Source: a virus. Taken from it: a stretch of DNA of 45,736 nucleotides. Below the pieces are notes generated by a model. That model worked only from the letters and a program-made list of their open reading frames with translations. It was not told the DNA's origin and did no database searches. The position numbers and the translations under genes were made by a program. Location: positions 1-45,736 of IMG/VR virus record IMGVR_UViG_3300027792_000030; one strand, given 5' to 3'. Shown here piece by piece: positions 1,698 through 40,828 of this stretch (positions are counted from its first letter, which is position 1; each line of letters opens with the position of its first letter).

Positions 1698-3278
1698 ATG
1701 TCTGCAAAATACACAGATAGAGTTAAAAAGATCATCCAATTCATCCAGCAATTGAAAGTCCCGTCCGGCAAGGGCGAGGGCAAGCCTTTCAAGCTCAGGC
1801 CATTCCAAAAGAAATTCATAAACGATATTTACGGGCCGGTGAATCACCTTGGAAACCGTCGGGTCCGCCGGGCGATTCTATCCCTTGCTCGGAAAAATGG
1901 TAAGTCTGTTTTAATCGCCACTCTTGCGCTGGTTCACCTTGTCGGGCCTGAGTCCGTCAACAACGGTGAGATTTATTCAGCGGCCAATGACCGGGAGCAA
2001 GCTGCGCTAATTTTCAAGTATGCTGCCCAAATTGTCCGGGCGGAGCCGGAGCTTGCGGCGATAATCAAGATTGTCGATTCAACAAAAACCATGATTTGCT
2101 TTCAGAACGGTTCCATTTATCGGGCTGTCAGCGCAGAGGCGGGCACCAAATACGGACTCAATCCAACTGTGGTTATTTATGACGAACTCGCACAGGCCAG
2201 GAACCGTGAGCTTTACGACGCGCTTGACACATCAATGGCGGCCAGGCTTGAACCGCTTTTTATCGTTATCTCAACACAATCCAATGATCCGCAACACATC
2301 CTGTCACAATTAATCGATGATGGGTTGTCCGGCCATGACCCGACAACCATATGTCATTTATATGCAACGCCCGACGACGCTGACGAAGTTTTCACAGATT
2401 TGAAATTATGGAAACTTGCAAACCCGGCACTTGGTGATTTTCGGTCCTTATCGGAAATGAAAACATCCGCAAAGCGGGCACAGCGTATGCCGACGTTTGA
2501 GGCGTCCTTCAGGAATCTGTATCTTAACCAAAGAGTGAACGCGGAAAGCCCGTTGATCCCCAGGCTTGAATGGGAGGCTTGCCGGGGCGATGCGGAAATA
2601 AAACCGGGTTCAGAAATATATTTAGGGTTGGATTTGTCAGGCAAAACGGACTTAACGGCATTGGTGGCTGTGTCCGCCGGCCAAAACGAAAAAGTTAAGG
2701 CATGGTTCTGGAAGCCAAAGGAAACCATTGAGGATGACGAGCGACGGGACCGGGTGCCCTATCGGGTGTGGGTGAATCAAGGATTTATTGAGACGACTCC
2801 GGGCCGGGCGATACAATACGATTGGGTGGCGGAAAGATTGGCGAAAATAATCAAGGATTACAAGGTTGTCGGGCTTGCTTTTGACAGGTGGCGCATTGAT
2901 GACCTTATGGCGGCCATGGGGAAGATTGGCATTGAATATTATCTTGACGGTAGCAAAGACAAGGTAAAGGCCGGAGCGCTGCGCATGGTGTCATGGGGTC
3001 AAGGTTATGGCTCTATGACGCAGGCAGTTGAGGCGCTTGAGGGGTCTATTATGGAGCGCAATTTTGTCCATGACGGAAATCCGTGTTTGACTTGGAATTT
3101 TTCTAATGCGATTGCGATTTCAGACGCGGCCGGAAACCGGAAACTTGATAAAAGCAAGACGCGATTCAGGATCGATGGGGCGGTGGCGTGCGCTATGGCG
3201 ATAGGGTTGAAGTCAAGGGATATGGCGGTGGCGCCGGGACCGTCCATCTACGAAAAACGCGGTGTGCTGACTTTATAG
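1698..3278 (+). CDS. terL: Terminase large subunit, HK97/Terminase_1 type
   Basis: This is the ATP-driven DNA translocase and headful/cos nuclease that packages DNA into the prohead. With the start at ATG 1698 it is 526 aa. The ATPase domain has a Walker A variant LARKNGKS (about 63-70), Walker B VVIYDEL (about 158-164) and the coupling motif ISTQSN (about 191). The nuclease domain begins with LGLDLSGKTDL (about 309). The frame stays open upstream to a TTG at 1629, but that extension is hydrophobic and unlike terminases. No SD precedes 1698; a promoter ends just before it, suggesting leaderless translation. Instead of portal, a sugar-biosynthesis cassette follows 8 bp after the stop. Confidence 0.92.
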   Translation: MSAKYTDRVKKIIQFIQQLKVPSGKGEGKPFKLRPFQKKFINDIYGPVNHLGNRRVRRAILSLARKNGKSVLIATLALVHLVGPESVNNGEIYSAANDREQAALIFKYAAQIVRAEPELAAIIKIVDSTKTMICFQNGSIYRAVSAEAGTKYGLNPTVVIYDELAQARNRELYDALDTSMAARLEPLFIVISTQSNDPQHILSQLIDDGLSGHDPTTICHLYATPDDADEVFTDLKLWKLANPALGDFRSLSEMKTSAKRAQRMPTFEASFRNLYLNQRVNAESPLIPRLEWEACRGDAEIKPGSEIYLGLDLSGKTDLTALVAVSAGQNEKVKAWFWKPKETIEDDERRDRVPYRVWVNQGFIETTPGRAIQYDWVAERLAKIIKDYKVVGLAFDRWRIDDLMAAMGKIGIEYYLDGSKDKVKAGALRMVSWGQGYGSMTQAVEALEGSIMERNFVHDGNPCLTWNFSNAIAISDAAGNRKLDKSKTRFRIDGAVACAMAIGLKSRDMAVAPGPSIYEKRGVLTL

Positions 3279-3286
3279 GGGGCTGT

Positions 3287-4336
3287 ATGAGAAAACTAAC
3301 TATTGGTGACAGAGTAATTACAGATGACAACGTTTTTGTAATCGCCGAGATCGGCAGCAACCACGGTGGAGATCCCGACCTGTGCGAGAAAATGATAATT
3401 GAAGCCGCTAAGTGTGGCGTGGACGCTGTAAAACTTCAGAAGCGAGACAACTCTATTATGTTTACCAAAGAGGCTTTGAATAGGCCATACGATAACGAGT
3501 TCTCTTACGGAAAAACATACGGTGAGCATAGGCAGCATTTGGACTGGTTCGGCAAGACGGAATTTGTTTGGATGCAGGATACCGCGATTAAACACGGTGT
3601 TTTATTTTTCGCGACTCCATTTGAGGAGGCCAGTGCTGACTTTTTATATGAAATAGGCATGCCGATATGGAAGATTGCCAGTTGCGACGTTACGAACCTG
3701 CCTCTGGTTAAAAAAGTCGCCGGCTATGGGCAACCTGTGATAATTTCAGTCGGCGGGGCGTCTATGGACGCTATCAAGGCTATGGTTGACACTATCGGGC
3801 CCATAAACAGCAATTTTGCCATTCTTCATTGCGTTTCTGTCTATCCTAATGAAGATTTTCAGCTTAATTTGAATTTTATTGAGACTTTACGAACGATGTA
3901 TTCAGATAACATTATCGGATTCAGTTCGCATTCCCCTGGGCAAGATACAATAAAAGATGCAATAGGTGTGGGTGCAAGAATAATCGAAGCACATTTTACA
4001 TTAAACCGGGGCAGCCGGGGGACAGATCACGGGTTTTCTTTAGAGCCAAAAGGAATGTCTGATATTTGCGAATATTGGAAACGAAGAAAGCTTAGACTTG
4101 GCAGTTCAATTCGTCACGTCTATCCAGAGGAAAAATGCGGTTTTATCAAGAAATTCGGCAAGGCAATTCACGCAGCCAGGCATATTCCGGCGGGAAAGGT
4201 GATAGAATCGAGCGATTTAACCATAAAGTCGCCGGCTGACGGACTTCCACCGGGCGAGTTTGACAAAATCATAGGCAGGGTGACATTGTTTGATTTATCC
4301 ACTGATTCCGGGTTGTCATGGGGGGATTTCGTATGA
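3287..4336 (+). CDS. NeuB-family nonulosonate (sialic acid-like) synthase
   Basis: NeuB enzymes condense phosphoenolpyruvate with a 6-carbon amino sugar to give sialic, legionaminic or pseudaminic acid. The 349-aa protein shows the whole family layout: AEIGSNHGG (20-28), KLQKR (49-53), the HCVSVYP segment, GFSSHSPG, the metal/PEP region EAHFTLN...GTDHGFSLEP, and a C-terminal antifreeze-like SAF domain (about 285-349, with HAARHIPAGKVI). Start ATG 3287 follows AGGGGG; the open frame upstream is terL shadow. It is first in a run of overlapping genes with an SDR and a CMP transferase. Which sugar it makes cannot be read from sequence. No NeuC or aminotransferase is present, so the substrate must come from the host. 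Confidence 0.88.
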   Translation: MRKLTIGDRVITDDNVFVIAEIGSNHGGDPDLCEKMIIEAAKCGVDAVKLQKRDNSIMFTKEALNRPYDNEFSYGKTYGEHRQHLDWFGKTEFVWMQDTAIKHGVLFFATPFEEASADFLYEIGMPIWKIASCDVTNLPLVKKVAGYGQPVIISVGGASMDAIKAMVDTIGPINSNFAILHCVSVYPNEDFQLNLNFIETLRTMYSDNIIGFSSHSPGQDTIKDAIGVGARIIEAHFTLNRGSRGTDHGFSLEPKGMSDICEYWKRRKLRLGSSIRHVYPEEKCGFIKKFGKAIHAARHIPAGKVIESSDLTIKSPADGLPPGEFDKIIGRVTLFDLSTDSGLSWGDFV

Positions 4337-6357: not shown

Positions 6358-6533
6358 AGAACGTGCTTATAGGCTGGAAGGCGATTGCTAATCATTTGGA
6401 AGTGGATGCTAAAACGGCGCAGCGTTATAAACGAGAAAAGGCCCTGCCGGTTATTTATGATCCAGCAGGGCATCCAGTCACGGAGCGGAAAAAATTAGAT
6501 GCGTGGCGTTTTGGTGTTGAATTATCCAGTTAG
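6354..6533 (+). CDS. Small HTH/excisionase-like DNA-binding protein
   Basis: This 59-aa protein starts at ATG 6354, overlapping the FkbM stop as ATGA. The order of a helix-turn-helix (GWKAIANHLEVDAKTAQRYK), a short wing (LPVIYDPAGHPV) and a final helix resembles the DNA-binding unit of excisionases and MerR-like proteins. No integrase accompanies it, so a transcriptional role is more likely than excision. It ends the plus-strand accessory operon and overlaps by 4 bp the stop of the convergent ribbon-helix-helix gene. Confidence 0.6.
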   Translation: MKNVLIGWKAIANHLEVDAKTAQRYKREKALPVIYDPAGHPVTERKKLDAWRFGVELSS

Positions 6534-6667
6534 AGCCTGTCTATGAGCATTTTCAGCCCGTCAATTACCGCTTTTTGGATTGATTTTATTTGGCCGTTAA
6601 GGATTGCGAGTTTCAGCTTGCGCCACATTTCCTCTGGCAGTCGGATTGTTAATATTTTATATTTCAT
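6530..6667 (-). CDS. 45-aa ribbon-helix-helix (Arc/CopG-like) protein
   Basis: The start is ATG 6667, with AAGG upstream. The sequence reads as a minimal RHH domain: strand KILTIRLPEEMW, then two helices (WRKLKLAILNG and IQKAVIDGLKMLIDRL). RHH proteins are small dimeric DNA binders, usually autorepressors, and some bind tandem short repeats (the omega repressor binds 7-bp repeats). The gene is last in the minus-strand set and begins 13 bp from pentamer array A, which makes it the best candidate array-binding regulator. Its stop overlaps the convergent HTH gene by 4 bp. Confidence 0.65.
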   Translation of the reverse strand: MKYKILTIRLPEEMWRKLKLAILNGQIKSIQKAVIDGLKMLIDRL

Positions 6668-6680
6668 GTTTATAAACCTT

Positions 6681-6755
6681 GTCGTGTCTTGTCCGGTCTT
6701 GTCGCGTCCGGTCCCGTCGTGTCTGGTCAGGTCTTGTCACGTCATGTCTCGTTTC
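6681..6755. repeat. GTCNN pentamer array A
   Basis: Fourteen consecutive units GTCNN run from 6681 to 6750 with no break in the 5-bp register, then one decayed unit (GTTTC). The variable pairs are GT TT CG TT GC CG CC GT TG AG TT AC AT TC: nearly random while GTC is fixed. It lies between the stop of the 174-aa gene and the start of the RHH gene, so in minus-strand RNA it is a run of NNGAC in the RHH leader. Motif constraint rather than copy slippage explains the pattern. Confidence 0.9.
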
Positions 6756-6756
6756 A

Positions 6757-7281
6757 TTATTTAAACAACTCCAATGCTTTTTTAGCTGGTAGCATATCGT
6801 TATTTTTTATGATTTGAGCCTCAACTTTTAATATTTCCTTTGGTTTGGTCATCAATTCAAACACGCCGAGGATGCTGGCGGCGGTGTTGTGGGCAATCTT
6901 GGCGTCATTCGGCAGTATATCGAAATTTTCGATACCGTGATGCAGCTTGCTTTTTTCCCGTCTGGCTACGCGCCTGATTTTTTGAATACCGAATTGTCCC
7001 GACAGGGCGACTTCTTCCTCAGTCATACATTTTAGGCCGACGTTTGTAATGGGTTCAAATACAAGTCCGAAATCTTTTAAGCAACGATCACGGGCGGTCT
7101 TGCAATAACAATAAGCGGCTGCTTGGACATCCGCTCCGATAAGTTCGGTCAGTTCTTTGTAGGATACGGTGTCGCCTCGTTGCATTTCTGACAGTCGTTT
7201 AATGAGGGTTTGGGTTTCAATGCTTTTTTCATTGATGGTTTTTTTTCGGGGGTGGTTGATGTCTATTACCGTGTTGTTCAT
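6757..7281 (-). CDS. Unknown 174-aa protein of the pentamer-array locus
   Basis: I do not recognise a named family. ATG 7281 follows AAAGGAG. The N-terminal ~35 residues are charged; then DTVSYKELTELIGADVQ (about 37-53) looks like a winged-helix/HTH element. YCYCKTARDRCLKDFG and the basic patch KIRRVARREKSKLHHG suggest nucleic-acid binding, and the C-terminal half is helical. There is no signal peptide or membrane segment. It is the middle gene of three that each carry a GTCNN array in the leader. Its leader shares an exact 19-bp element with that of the 185-aa gene, so the two are probably co-regulated and work together. Confidence 0.55.
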   Translation of the reverse strand: MNNTVIDINHPRKKTINEKSIETQTLIKRLSEMQRGDTVSYKELTELIGADVQAAAYCYCKTARDRCLKDFGLVFEPITNVGLKCMTEEEVALSGQFGIQKIRRVARREKSKLHHGIENFDILPNDAKIAHNTAASILGVFELMTKPKEILKVEAQIIKNNDMLPAKKALELFK

Positions 7282-7294
7282 TTTGTTCTCCTTT

Positions 7295-7313
7295 GGTTAA
7301 ATTGCCTTGCGTT
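7295..7313 (-). repeat. 19-bp leader element, copy 1 (next to array B)
   Basis: GGTTAAATTGCCTTGCGTT (plus strand) is identical to 7941-7959 and directly abuts the first GTC unit of array B. In the minus-strand message it separates the array from the AAAGGAG ribosome binding site of the 174-aa gene. The exact match between otherwise different leaders implies selection or duplication of an array-plus-leader block. Confidence 0.85.
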
Positions 7314-7363
7314 GTCAAGTCATGTCATGTCTTGTCGTGTCGTGTCGGGTCAAGTCTCGTCAA
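7314..7363. repeat. GTCNN pentamer array B
   Basis: Ten perfect consecutive GTCNN units start at 7314, 7319 and so on to 7359. Variable pairs are AA AT AT TT GT GT GG AA TC AA. It fills the gap between the 174-aa gene leader and the stop of the 185-aa gene (7365-7367). Confidence 0.9.
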
Positions 7364-7364
7364 T

Positions 7365-7922
7365 TTATTCAATAATCATATCAACAACATCAAACCGGCC
7401 ATAAAAACCGTTATTCCGTGGGCGGAAACGGCCAATACCGATAAATTTTCCAGCTTCCTGAAAATGATGTTTTAAAACCGATTCTGTAATGGTTTGGTCA
7501 AGGATGAAAATTTCGACGTCTCCCTGCCATTCCTGAATGACCGGGAAACACTTCAAAACCCTGGTTGAGCCTCCGCGCCGTCCGTCTGACGGAACGTGAA
7601 ACCATTCACCGGGGACATCTTCCTTTTTGATGGGCAATACGAGTGGTTCCGTGATTAATACTCCGGCTTCAAAATGCTTTGTATATGTGGATTTACCTTT
7701 ACCGGGGATTTGGATTGAGAGGAACTTGGCGGCTTCTGAGAGACAGTTTTTGAAAGCCATCGGGGGGATGAAAACATATCCGTCCTTGTTGACGTGAAGG
7801 CGGTCCCTCCATGTCCTTTCCTCGTAGGCGTCCGGGCGTTCTTTTTCAAGTTTTTCTGTTCTGTAAAATTTGCTTTGTGAATACGGGGATGCTGAAACTA
7901 CTGTTGCAATTGCTTTTTTCAT
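7365..7922 (-). CDS. RAMP/Cas7-like protein of the pentamer-array locus
   Basis: This 185-aa protein is not part of any CRISPR locus here. ATG 7922 follows AAAAGGAG. Features that recall RAMP-superfamily (Cas7-type) RNA-binding proteins, in order: an N-terminal strand (KAIATVVSASPYS), then IPPMAFKNCLSEAAKFL (about 52-68) resembling the IPGSSLKGALR-type segment and first helix, a central insertion, the strand-helix unit EIFILDQTITESVLKHHFQEAG (about 137-158), and a closing Gly/Arg-rich loop GIGRFRPRNNGFYGRF resembling the RAMP G-rich loop. All of this is pattern reading, and a distinct nucleic-acid-binding fold is possible. It is the promoter-proximal gene of the locus, with the longest array in its leader. 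Confidence 0.5.
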   Translation of the reverse strand: MKKAIATVVSASPYSQSKFYRTEKLEKERPDAYEERTWRDRLHVNKDGYVFIPPMAFKNCLSEAAKFLSIQIPGKGKSTYTKHFEAGVLITEPLVLPIKKEDVPGEWFHVPSDGRRGGSTRVLKCFPVIQEWQGDVEIFILDQTITESVLKHHFQEAGKFIGIGRFRPRNNGFYGRFDVVDMIIE

Positions 7923-7940
7923 GGTGCTTTCTCCTTTTTG

Positions 7941-7959
7941 GGTTAAATTGCCTTGCGTT
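7941..7959 (-). repeat. 19-bp leader element, copy 2 (next to array C)
   Basis: Identical to 7295-7313. Here it abuts the first in-register pentamer (7960) of array C and lies 5' of the AAAAGGAG site of the 185-aa gene. The junction between leader and array is at the same base in both copies. Confidence 0.85.
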
Positions 7960-8089
7960 GGCTGGTCGGGTCCTGCCTCGTCCTGTCGCGTCTTGTCATG
8001 TCACGTCGAGTCTGGTCCAGTCTTGACTTATCAAGTCAAATCTAGTCTTGTCGTGTCACGTCGTGTCATGACTCATTGGGTCAAGTCTC
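7960..8089. repeat. GTCNN pentamer array C (longest)
   Basis: From 7965 to 8089 there are 25 units in unbroken 5-bp register. Nineteen have exact GTC; the others are single-base variants (GCC, GAC, ATC) or ATT at 8075. A decayed unit at 7960 joins it to the leader element. The dinucleotides are highly variable. It occupies the leader of the 185-aa gene, close to the expected transcription start of the minus-strand set. Confidence 0.9.
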
Positions 8090-37861: not shown

Positions 37862-40339
37862 ATGACAGAAACCAACATACGCTCTTTGCCCCCACCCTCC
37901 ACCGGCCCTCATCGAAAACTTGTTTTCGGCGTAGGCCGGAACCGGAAAGACGTGAAAATCAAAAACACCTCCCTAACATGGAACGAATTCAAGTTACAGT
38001 TGCACGCTCCCGCTGTCACCAACGAAACCTCAGCTGAATACCAATCGGCCTCCCCATCGCAACGGGACAGCATTAAAGACGGAAAATACTTTGTTGGTGG
38101 CGGGTTCGACAAACCCCTTCGTAAAAAACAGCACTTGTTATTTCGTGACATTCTCACTCTGGATGCCGACCACGCCCCCGTAAACTGGAGGGAAGAGATC
38201 AAGACCCGTTTAGCAGGTGTTGAGTGGGCCGCGTATACCACCCACAGCCACACAGCGGAACGGCCCAGAATCAGGGTGCTGATACCGATAGACAGAAGTG
38301 TTGAGCCTTTAGAGTATGGGTTAGTGGTAAGAGTCGCAGCTCAAAAACTTGGGTTGGATTGGTTGGATATGACGTGTTTGCAATGGCTGCGTCTTATGTA
38401 CTTCCCCTCGGTATCGGTTGATGGCGCGTCTTATTACGTTTTTGAAGAGGGAAATGGGGTGTTTCTATCCCCTGAACGCATAAAGGCTAAATTTTTAAAC
38501 TGGAAAGACGTGTCCCAATGGCCGGTAGTCGACAACGAAGCTAAAGCGCTTTTAAAGAGGGCGGATAAAGTAGGCGACCCAAAGCTCAAGAAAAACTGGA
38601 TCGGGGCGTTTTGCCGGGTCTGGGGCATTTCAGAGGCCATAAATAAGTGGTTGCCCGGAGTCTATACGCAAGGGGAGGGGGGAAGAGGGGATCGGTGGAC
38701 TTACTCAAAAGGCACCTCAACCAACGGCGCAGTCGTGTACGAAGAAAAATGGCTGTATTCACACCACGAAACCGACCCATGCAGCGGTATGCTGCTCAAC
38801 TCTTTTGACTTGGTTCGGATACATCTATATGGGCACATGGACGCCAAGTGTCACATCGACACGGAAATTGATAAAAAACCCAGCTATAAGGCCATGCTTG
38901 CCCTTGCTTCCAGTGATATTGCAACAATAGAAGATATGGGGCTGACTCGGCTGCTTGCCGCCAGTGAAGATTTTAAAGCGGGGCATACTGAAGGGGCTGA
39001 AAGAGCGGCAGACACCGACGAGGGGGCACCATCAGAAAAAGAAAAAAAAGCGCCCCCTAAATTCACTCTTGGGAAAGAGGGGGAAATAAAAAACACACTG
39101 GGGAATGTGATTGAAATACTTAAACATGACACAATATTACGCGGGTGTGTGGCCCTTGATATGTTTTCAGGAAACCTGACGCACACCGCACACCTCCCTG
39201 GTTTCTATAAAAGAGAGGGTGAGCAGTGGACGGACTTCTCGGATATATGGGTTCGGAATTATCTGGAAAAACAATATAAACTGACCCCCACACCTGAGAT
39301 GGTTCACTCCGCTATTAGTCATATCGCGGCTGAAAAGCGGTTTCACCCAGTAGTGAACTGGTTAAAAAGTCTCGAATGGGACGGAAAACCCCGCGTGGAG
39401 ATGTTATTTATTGAGTGCCTGGGAGCGGAGGACAACGAGTACACTAGAAAAGTCAGTATAAATACACTGGTCGGCGCAATTACTCGTGTAATGGAACCAG
39501 GAAGCAAGTTTGATTTCATGCCTATACTGGAAGGCACGCAGGGTATAAGAAAATCAACTTTTTGGCAGGTGTTGAGTAACGGCTGGTTTTCTGAGTTGAA
39601 AACCTTCGACCAGAAGATCGCGGCTGAAATCATACAGGGGGTGTGGTTTGCTGAGGTGGCCGAGCTGGAAGCCATGCGAAAAGCAGATATCGAAAAAATC
39701 AAAGTGTTTCTCAGCCAGAATAAAGACAGATACAGGAAAGCCTATGATCGCCGGGTTGAGGACCAGCCACGACAGTGTGTTTTTGTTGGCTCAACGAACA
39801 AATCTGAGTATTTGGACGATTTTTCCGGTGCCCGTCGTTTTTGGCCTATTGCCTGTAATACAACACTGATTGATACCGTAAAATTAAAAGAAGAATTGTC
39901 TTTGATATGGGCGGAAGCATTTCAAATTTATATGTTAGGGGCGGTAAATCTGTTTATAGATGGTCCCGCTTTGGAAATCGTAAAAGAAGCACAACTTGAC
40001 CGGACTCATGCGGATGACTGGGTGGGTATTATTGCGGAATGGCTGGAAGAGGACGCACTGCTTAGTCGGTATTCAGGAACAGTAGGTGTTGGGGAGCTTT
40101 CCCAGGTGGACAGCGACGGCCAGGTATCGGGGCCAACCGAAAAAAAACAAAGAGTGTGCGTTGTCGAAGTTTGGGAAGACTGCTTCAAAAAACCAAGCAT
40201 CGAGTTAAAAAGAACAGACAGTTTCAGAATAAGCCGAATATTAAAACACGATTTAAAATGGAATCGTACAAAAAATCAACGGTTTGGGAGCCGTTTCGGA
40301 ATTCAAAAAGGCTTTACACGACCTCCTCTTTTTGTATAA
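37862..40339 (+). CDS. VapE-type primase-helicase
   Basis: The 825-aa replication protein has an N-terminal primase-like part with RDILTLDADHAPVNWREEI (about 98-116, D-x-D) and HSHTAERPRIRVLIPIDR. The C-terminal VapE/D5-type ATPase has PILEGTQGIRKSTFWQVLS (Walker A), VWFAEVAELEAM (Walker B), FLSQNKDRYRKAYDRRVED and FVGSTNKSEYLDDFSGARRF. A Glu/Lys/Pro linker joins them. Candidate origin repeats lie just downstream. It follows the Cro-like gene. Confidence 0.87.
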   Translation: MTETNIRSLPPPSTGPHRKLVFGVGRNRKDVKIKNTSLTWNEFKLQLHAPAVTNETSAEYQSASPSQRDSIKDGKYFVGGGFDKPLRKKQHLLFRDILTLDADHAPVNWREEIKTRLAGVEWAAYTTHSHTAERPRIRVLIPIDRSVEPLEYGLVVRVAAQKLGLDWLDMTCLQWLRLMYFPSVSVDGASYYVFEEGNGVFLSPERIKAKFLNWKDVSQWPVVDNEAKALLKRADKVGDPKLKKNWIGAFCRVWGISEAINKWLPGVYTQGEGGRGDRWTYSKGTSTNGAVVYEEKWLYSHHETDPCSGMLLNSFDLVRIHLYGHMDAKCHIDTEIDKKPSYKAMLALASSDIATIEDMGLTRLLAASEDFKAGHTEGAERAADTDEGAPSEKEKKAPPKFTLGKEGEIKNTLGNVIEILKHDTILRGCVALDMFSGNLTHTAHLPGFYKREGEQWTDFSDIWVRNYLEKQYKLTPTPEMVHSAISHIAAEKRFHPVVNWLKSLEWDGKPRVEMLFIECLGAEDNEYTRKVSINTLVGAITRVMEPGSKFDFMPILEGTQGIRKSTFWQVLSNGWFSELKTFDQKIAAEIIQGVWFAEVAELEAMRKADIEKIKVFLSQNKDRYRKAYDRRVEDQPRQCVFVGSTNKSEYLDDFSGARRFWPIACNTTLIDTVKLKEELSLIWAEAFQIYMLGAVNLFIDGPALEIVKEAQLDRTHADDWVGIIAEWLEEDALLSRYSGTVGVGELSQVDSDGQVSGPTEKKQRVCVVEVWEDCFKKPSIELKRTDSFRISRILKHDLKWNRTKNQRFGSRFGIQKGFTRPPLFV

Positions 40340-40350
40340 AAACACATAAT

Positions 40351-40379
40351 GTTACCAAATTTGGTAACATTTTTTTTTT
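40351..40379 (+). terminator. Terminator formed by a GTTACCAAA palindrome
   Basis: GTTACCAAATTTGGTAAC (40351-40368) is a perfect 18-bp palindrome followed by A and ten T. It lies 12 bp after the primase stop. It acts plausibly as an intrinsic terminator, and is also the first of the GTTACCAAA motifs. Confidence 0.6.
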
Positions 40380-40652
40380 GGTAACATTTTTGGTAACGCT
40401 TTTTTTTCTAATAAATTAAACTGTTACCAGAATGTTACCAAAGTTACCAAAATATGAGCATATATACATGAGAGATGAATACATATATGTAGTGTTGGTT
40501 GTAATTATAATTCTATATAAAGTTTGGAAATAGGGTTTTTTTGGTAACTTGGTAACAAAAACAGCTTTCTTATTATAGTTCCGGTAGGTTAGCGCTGTTA
40601 CCAAAATTTTCAACCTGTGTTACCAGAAGTGAAACAAGCTGAAAAAAGCTAG

Positions 40653-40721
40653 AAATGTTACCAAAGTTACCAAAAAAACCAAAAAACAGAAAGACTTTTG
40701 GTAACAAAAATAAAAATACAT
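40653..40721. repeat. Long direct repeat, copy 1 (69 bp)
   Basis: It begins AAATGTTACCAAAGTTACCA and ends with TAAAAATACAT. It matches 40759-40828 except for one A missing in an A run. It holds two direct and one inverted GTTACCAAA motif. Confidence 0.85.
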
Positions 40722-40758
40722 GAAAAACACGAAAAAACAAAAAAGTGGTAAAAATACC

Positions 40759-40828
40759 AAATGTTACCAAAGTTACCAAAAAAACCAAAAAAACAGAAAG
40801 ACTTTTGGTAACAAAAATAAAAATACAT
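40759..40828. repeat. Long direct repeat, copy 2 (70 bp)
   Basis: Same as copy 1 with a single extra A in a homopolymer. It ends 19 bp before the start of the next gene and covers its promoter region. Confidence 0.85.

Follow-up and report, generated by a model that had tools for sequence, protein, structure and literature searches.

A Cas7-like protein gene among pentameric GAC arrays in a virus genome: a very probable VIPR locus

Three arrays of five-nucleotide units in the IMG/VR virus record IMGVR_UViG_3300027792_000030 (45,736 nucleotides, analysed at full length and called the window in the following) are very probably the guide-RNA genes of a VIPR system and are accompanied by its vipr and vap genes. 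VIPR, a months-old candidate ancestor of CRISPR, is a small CRISPR-like phage system reported in a preprint from 2026 (PMC13142463). It consists of a RAMP protein, a vap gene and vrRNAs, in which GGY and NN alternate over 9-16 units followed by a 3' tail. The fixed triplet is the protein-bound scaffold, given in the preprint as GGY "or a related consensus", and the NN pairs are a gapped guide that reads DNA with a 1-nt skip, repressing competing phages (PMC13142463). For SUSP1 it was shown experimentally that NN pairs read dsDNA with one skipped base; SUSP1 Vipr co-purifies with the vrRNAs, these target other elements, and in type II VIPR Vap is DNA-binding (PMC13142463).

Array 1 (6681..6748, minus strand) has 14 units, all 14 with GAC (GTC on the plus strand), array 2 (7314..7361, minus strand) has GAC in 10 of 10 and array 3 (7965..8087, minus strand) in 19 of 25, so that the triplet is fixed in 43 of the 49 units, exactly as the original prediction had counted. 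Arrays 1 and 2 thus fall within the published range of unit numbers and array 3 lies beyond it. The 3' half of array 3 (7965-8022) is clean and its 5' half degenerate; the latter holds five of the six deviant units (GAT twice, GTC twice and AAT), the sixth being GGC, and the array is possibly made up of two overlapping guides. A 5-unit pattern with at most 2 mismatches matched 37 times in the window versus 0.07 times expected in shuffles (largest value 2), and no other triplet, at periods of 4-11, gave a comparable run there. With the same kind of detector the published GGT/NN arrays of SUSP1 were found again.

Over the 49 units the minus-strand triplet G-A-C carries 1.81/1.57/1.62 bits and the two following positions 0.10/0.02 bits, which agrees with the proposal that binding constrains the triplet and leaves NN to vary. 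In the NN columns the composition is indistinguishable from that of the region (p 0.52 and 0.28), and no 3-unit block is repeated within the window's own arrays. The guides read AT GT AA CT CA AC GG CG GC AA CG AA AC in array 1 and GA TT CC AC AC AA AT AT TT in array 2. Tandem pentamers of three fixed and two hypervariable bases are a feature of VIPR.

The sense strand of the arrays is the minus strand, on which the units read GAC/NN, as the prediction had supposed for the mRNA. The assignment follows from the genes for the 185-aa and 174-aa proteins, which lie on this strand, and from the tail common to arrays 2 and 3 on that side: the 19 nucleotides AACGCAAGGCAATTTAACC are identical 3' of array 2 (7295..7313, minus strand) and of array 3 (7941..7959, minus strand), and the opposite flanks have no comparable sequence in common. 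An invariable 3' tail, another VIPR feature, is thus present in arrays 2 and 3; array 1 is followed by the different AAGGTTTATAAAC, which resembles AAGGGATTTATAAGG found 3' of GAC arrays in the relative L230. Among relatives the tail begins mostly with AAGG, AAGA or AACG (178 arrays), and AA stands as the last NN in 101 of 203 cases, which is why the unit at the end probably belongs to the scaffold and not to the guide. Since stops interrupt nearly every minus-strand frame (array 1 has one open frame), the arrays are not protein-coding. Folding of arrays plus tails was not significantly above that of shuffles, an Rfam search including hammerhead ribozymes gave no match, and promoters and terminators at the locus were found at chance level only.

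Between arrays 2 and 3 lies the gene for the 185-aa protein (7365..7922, minus strand), which we assign as vipr from profile, fold and hhalign. Against Pfam, NCBIfam and PADLOC the protein gave no match of note; it belongs to PHROG 4652, a group whose function is not known, and many viral contigs carry a relative of it next to GAC arrays. The profile built from 20 relatives located beside GAC/GTC arrays hit SUSP1 agp039 (Vipr) with an E value of 1.9e-12, one from the alignment of 18 relatives hit PDB 36pp ("SUSP1 Vipr protein") with 2.4e-11, and hhalign gave 98%. The predicted fold (pLDDT 93.5) has type VII Cas7 and Csm3 as top Foldseek matches (E 1.5e-7 to 8yhe), and the Vipr motif GxGxxR...GxxGRF is present, with the G-loop GIGRFRPRNNGFYGRF. 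Profile and model comparisons thus identify a Cas7-like RAMP protein of the ancestral single-RRM type with a G-loop, related to SUSP1 Vipr. The original prediction had pointed to a Cas7-like filament on RNA, and such an RNA-binding protein next door indeed accounts for the 5-nt pitch; the filament on duplex DNA, mentioned there as an alternative, is no longer needed.

The 174-aa protein encoded at 6757..7281 (minus strand) belongs to a family with members next to Vipr at 103 of the 134 Vipr loci. The family profile hit SUSP1 agp038 with an E value of 3.9e-5; direct profile-sequence comparison of the protein (P0002) with SUSP1 Vap gave a weak link. Its model (pLDDT 89.9) matches winged-helix structures, all weakly. 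By family profile and model the protein is a winged-helix relative of the SUSP1 accessory protein Vap. Directly after array 1 a 45-aa ORF (6530..6667, minus strand) resembles RHH proteins; it is an ORF call without a match in Pfam and at most a candidate member of the system. Near a Vipr relative in Pseudomonas phage Medea1 a small Arc-family gene is annotated.

The locus thus resembles the type II VIPR of SUSP1 (PMC13142463; PDB 36pp) in having a single Cas7-like RAMP protein of about 20 kDa, a neighbouring gene for a DNA-binding Vap and several phage-borne arrays of 5-nt period, in which two free bases accompany three fixed ones and 3' tails follow. It differs in the scaffold (GAC, not literally the GGY of the tested systems), in the tail (AACGCAAGGC... 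versus the pseudoknot tail of SUSP1), in one array of 25 units and in a Vipr with an identity of only about 22% where the two align. With class 1 CRISPR-Cas systems (the Cas7/Csm3 filaments of types VII and III-A) it shares the RAMP fold, the G-loop and an RNA held at regular pitch. Unlike these, the window has one RAMP protein, a 5-nt unit with three fixed bases and pentamer arrays only, with neither CRISPR-type spacers and repeats nor a significant Cas match in PADLOC or NCBIfam. The same anatomy and the same protein recur in dozens of different phages, and no run of 6 NN is common to the arrays of different non-redundant phages. Some relatives have very large loci (L198/L201, L137, L047 and L212), with 7 to 11 arrays or up to 78 units per array, far beyond the 9-16 units published per vrRNA.

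Starting from what was observed (the arrays, their tails, the homology and fold of Vipr and the co-occurrence of Vap), the system may work as follows. The arrays would be co-transcribed with vipr and vap from the minus strand, yielding vrRNAs in which GAC/NN units are followed by a short 3' tail. Along the vrRNA Vipr would form a coat, with a subunit every 5 nt that grips GAC as scaffold and leaves the NN pair free for pairing with DNA. By analogy to SUSP1, successive NN pairs would read dsDNA, skipping the one base between each pair and the next, and a competing phage or prophage would have its transcription repressed when the target is bound. DNA binding is probably strengthened by the winged-helix Vap.

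The "free NN" of the original prediction held only in part: the pairs do vary at background composition, but by homology to VIPR they appear to be the message of the guide and not filler. In 170 guides (2175 NN pairs) the composition resembles that of codon positions 1-2 more closely than 2-3 (bootstrap p 0.027), 3-1 (<0.001) or a mix of phases (0.005), as the published wobble-skip predicts; GAC guides alone gave the same ranking of the codon phases with a small margin over 2-3. TA occurs among the NN pairs at 0.55 of expectation. A codon phase shared by all NN of one guide was tested for and was not significant; since this and the target searches below gave no signal, the 1-nt skip would apply to the window phage by inference.

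This composition bears on the idea that the arrays are operators, on dsDNA or RNA, for a filament-forming regulator (the RHH-like or the 174-aa protein) which binds the triplet while NN carries no information. Genes do follow downstream of the arrays, the ORF of 45 aa looks RHH-like and the 174-aa protein is winged-helix; repeat operators for RHH or ParB-like proteins likewise consist of short, evenly spaced direct repeats next to a small gene for a DNA-binding protein. We nevertheless consider this idea very unlikely, because the partner shown to recur across loci is not the RHH-like ORF but the RNA-binding RAMP protein Vipr, whose SUSP1 relative co-purifies with such RNAs, and because the variable positions, with their codon-like information and shortage of TA, are unlike filler.

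Searches of IMG/VR with a 1-nt skip gave no natural target for the guides of the window beyond what chance would give. Array 2 (9 NN) gave 3 matches, array 1 one match with 9 NN and 1 and 7 with its 8-NN halves, and array 3 none with its 3' part and 2 with its 5' part; extension of the matches revealed only scattered further agreement. The best candidate, 10 consecutive NN in a phage that is represented twice (L257/L258, 99.9% identical), was rejected as chance-like; in it the skipped base falls on codon position 1. Within the loci analysed, targets at skips of 0-2 were not above those of shuffled guides, and a skip of 3 returned the arrays themselves. A host search returned diverse MAGs, and the guides of three relatives gave only 3-mismatch matches, none above chance, in genomes of the Accumulibacter, Rhizorhabdus and Geobacteraceae families. 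One phage, the relative L175, has several guides at 2881-3354 (GC AA TT AT GG GT..., GC AA TC AG GG AT... and GC AA TT AG GG GT...) that are alike except for a few NN, as if directed at variants of one target.

That no outside target turned up, and that every array directly precedes a gene on the same strand, would also fit a system derived from VIPR whose array RNAs are leaders of vap and vipr and regulate the phage's own operon. The guides, however, matched the window no better than by chance at skips of 0-2 and only the array itself at a skip of 3, and the vrRNAs of SUSP1 act on other elements (PMC13142463); self-regulation of this kind is in our judgement extremely improbable, and we keep to guide RNAs acting on other elements.

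The window's most similar relatives use GGC instead of GAC. Among relatives fetched by protein and not by array the fixed triplet is mostly GGC, followed by GAC, CGC, CTC, GTC, GTT, GGT and CAC, mainly with one triplet per phage; GTC and GAC being reverse complements, the label could be flipped where an array runs against vipr. Relatives with switched triplets are 45-72% identical, and close pairs are L191 (GAC) and L188 (GGC) with 79% identity and the window (GAC) and L149 (GGC) with 70%. A tree calculated for 72 Viprs requires 22 changes of the triplet versus 37 if the labels are shuffled. The figure of 22 is rough, because resolution is poor (12 of 69 branches starred); the well-supported branches alone require at least 4 changes for GGC.

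Several Vipr residues vary with the triplet. R165 in the G-loop is found in all 39 proteins with a middle-G triplet and is absent from 20 of the 23 whose triplet has a middle A, the window's Vipr, which retains it, being an exception. Residue 126 is F in every protein with a G-first triplet and Y in 9 of 13 proteins with C-first triplets. Residue 11 is Ala or Thr in 5 of the 5 GTC/GTT proteins tabulated and in no GGC protein of the same clade; in the window's Vipr it is Ala. Since independent pairs are too few for significance, these covarying residues are leads. Repeated switching of the triplet together with Vipr residues goes beyond the main text of the preprint (PMC13142463). A GAC system whose closest relatives use GGC provides natural pairs for finding the residues that read the scaffold, and for asking whether the VIPRs of competing phages are orthogonal.

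Four relatives (L156, L157, L158 and L160) encode one and the same Vipr sequence and show 98-99.5% identity over 4.4-7.5 kb, whereas their first arrays contain 18, 18, 22 and 31 NN and their second arrays 20, 15, 15 and 12 NN, respectively; short-read assembly of repeats could produce part of these differences. Several pairs among the four have 3-unit blocks in common far above shuffles, and the two arrays of L160 share six such blocks (0.09 expected); in the other pairs the array content is largely replaced. Within phages generally, 84 repeated 3-unit blocks were counted versus 26.7 +/- 5.5. From the sharing between loci and the repeats within phages it follows that units move in blocks while the scaffold is kept. 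The claim of the original prediction that the arrays are not shaped by slippage is thus not supported: slippage or recombination does shape them, a point that likewise goes beyond the preprint's main text (PMC13142463). NN pairs in the same order, which had been named as a sign of recent duplication, are found as common blocks in near-identical loci and are absent within the window's arrays. Near-identical loci with reshuffled arrays make the origin of new guides directly testable. In L064 (reverse complement), which has arrays near 3184, 3268, 3968 and 4082, two arrays have long NN runs (6-NN) in common with the other two, likely a recent duplication.

The shuffled blocks of the near-identical loci and the block repeats within phages are also what one would expect if the arrays were functionless tandem repeats generated by slippage, but we give this explanation scarcely any credence. 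Pure slippage would copy NN too, whereas in the window the triplet holds about 1.7 bits and NN about 0.06; the window lacks a repeated 3-unit block; and anatomy and protein recur together in many different phages. For functional guide arrays we tentatively suggest, with our own judgement leaning somewhat against it, that the scaffold triplet might be a self/non-self key: each Vipr would load only its own triplet, the triplet would switch with residues 165, 11 and 126, and guide diversity would arise from the shuffling of unit blocks, inside single arrays as well as from one array to another, not from target capture.

Elsewhere in the window, a cluster at 40350-40813 holds about 16 TTTGGTAACA-like sites, oriented either way, and lies just after a VapE-like gene (37862-40339); 20 such sites were counted in the window versus 4.0 expected, and the cluster looks like replication-origin or regulatory iterons. 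At 3188-6357 genes for NeuB, a short-chain dehydrogenase, a cytidylyltransferase and an FkbM methyltransferase follow each other in a row and form a nonulosonic-acid-type sugar cassette between the terminase and portal genes.
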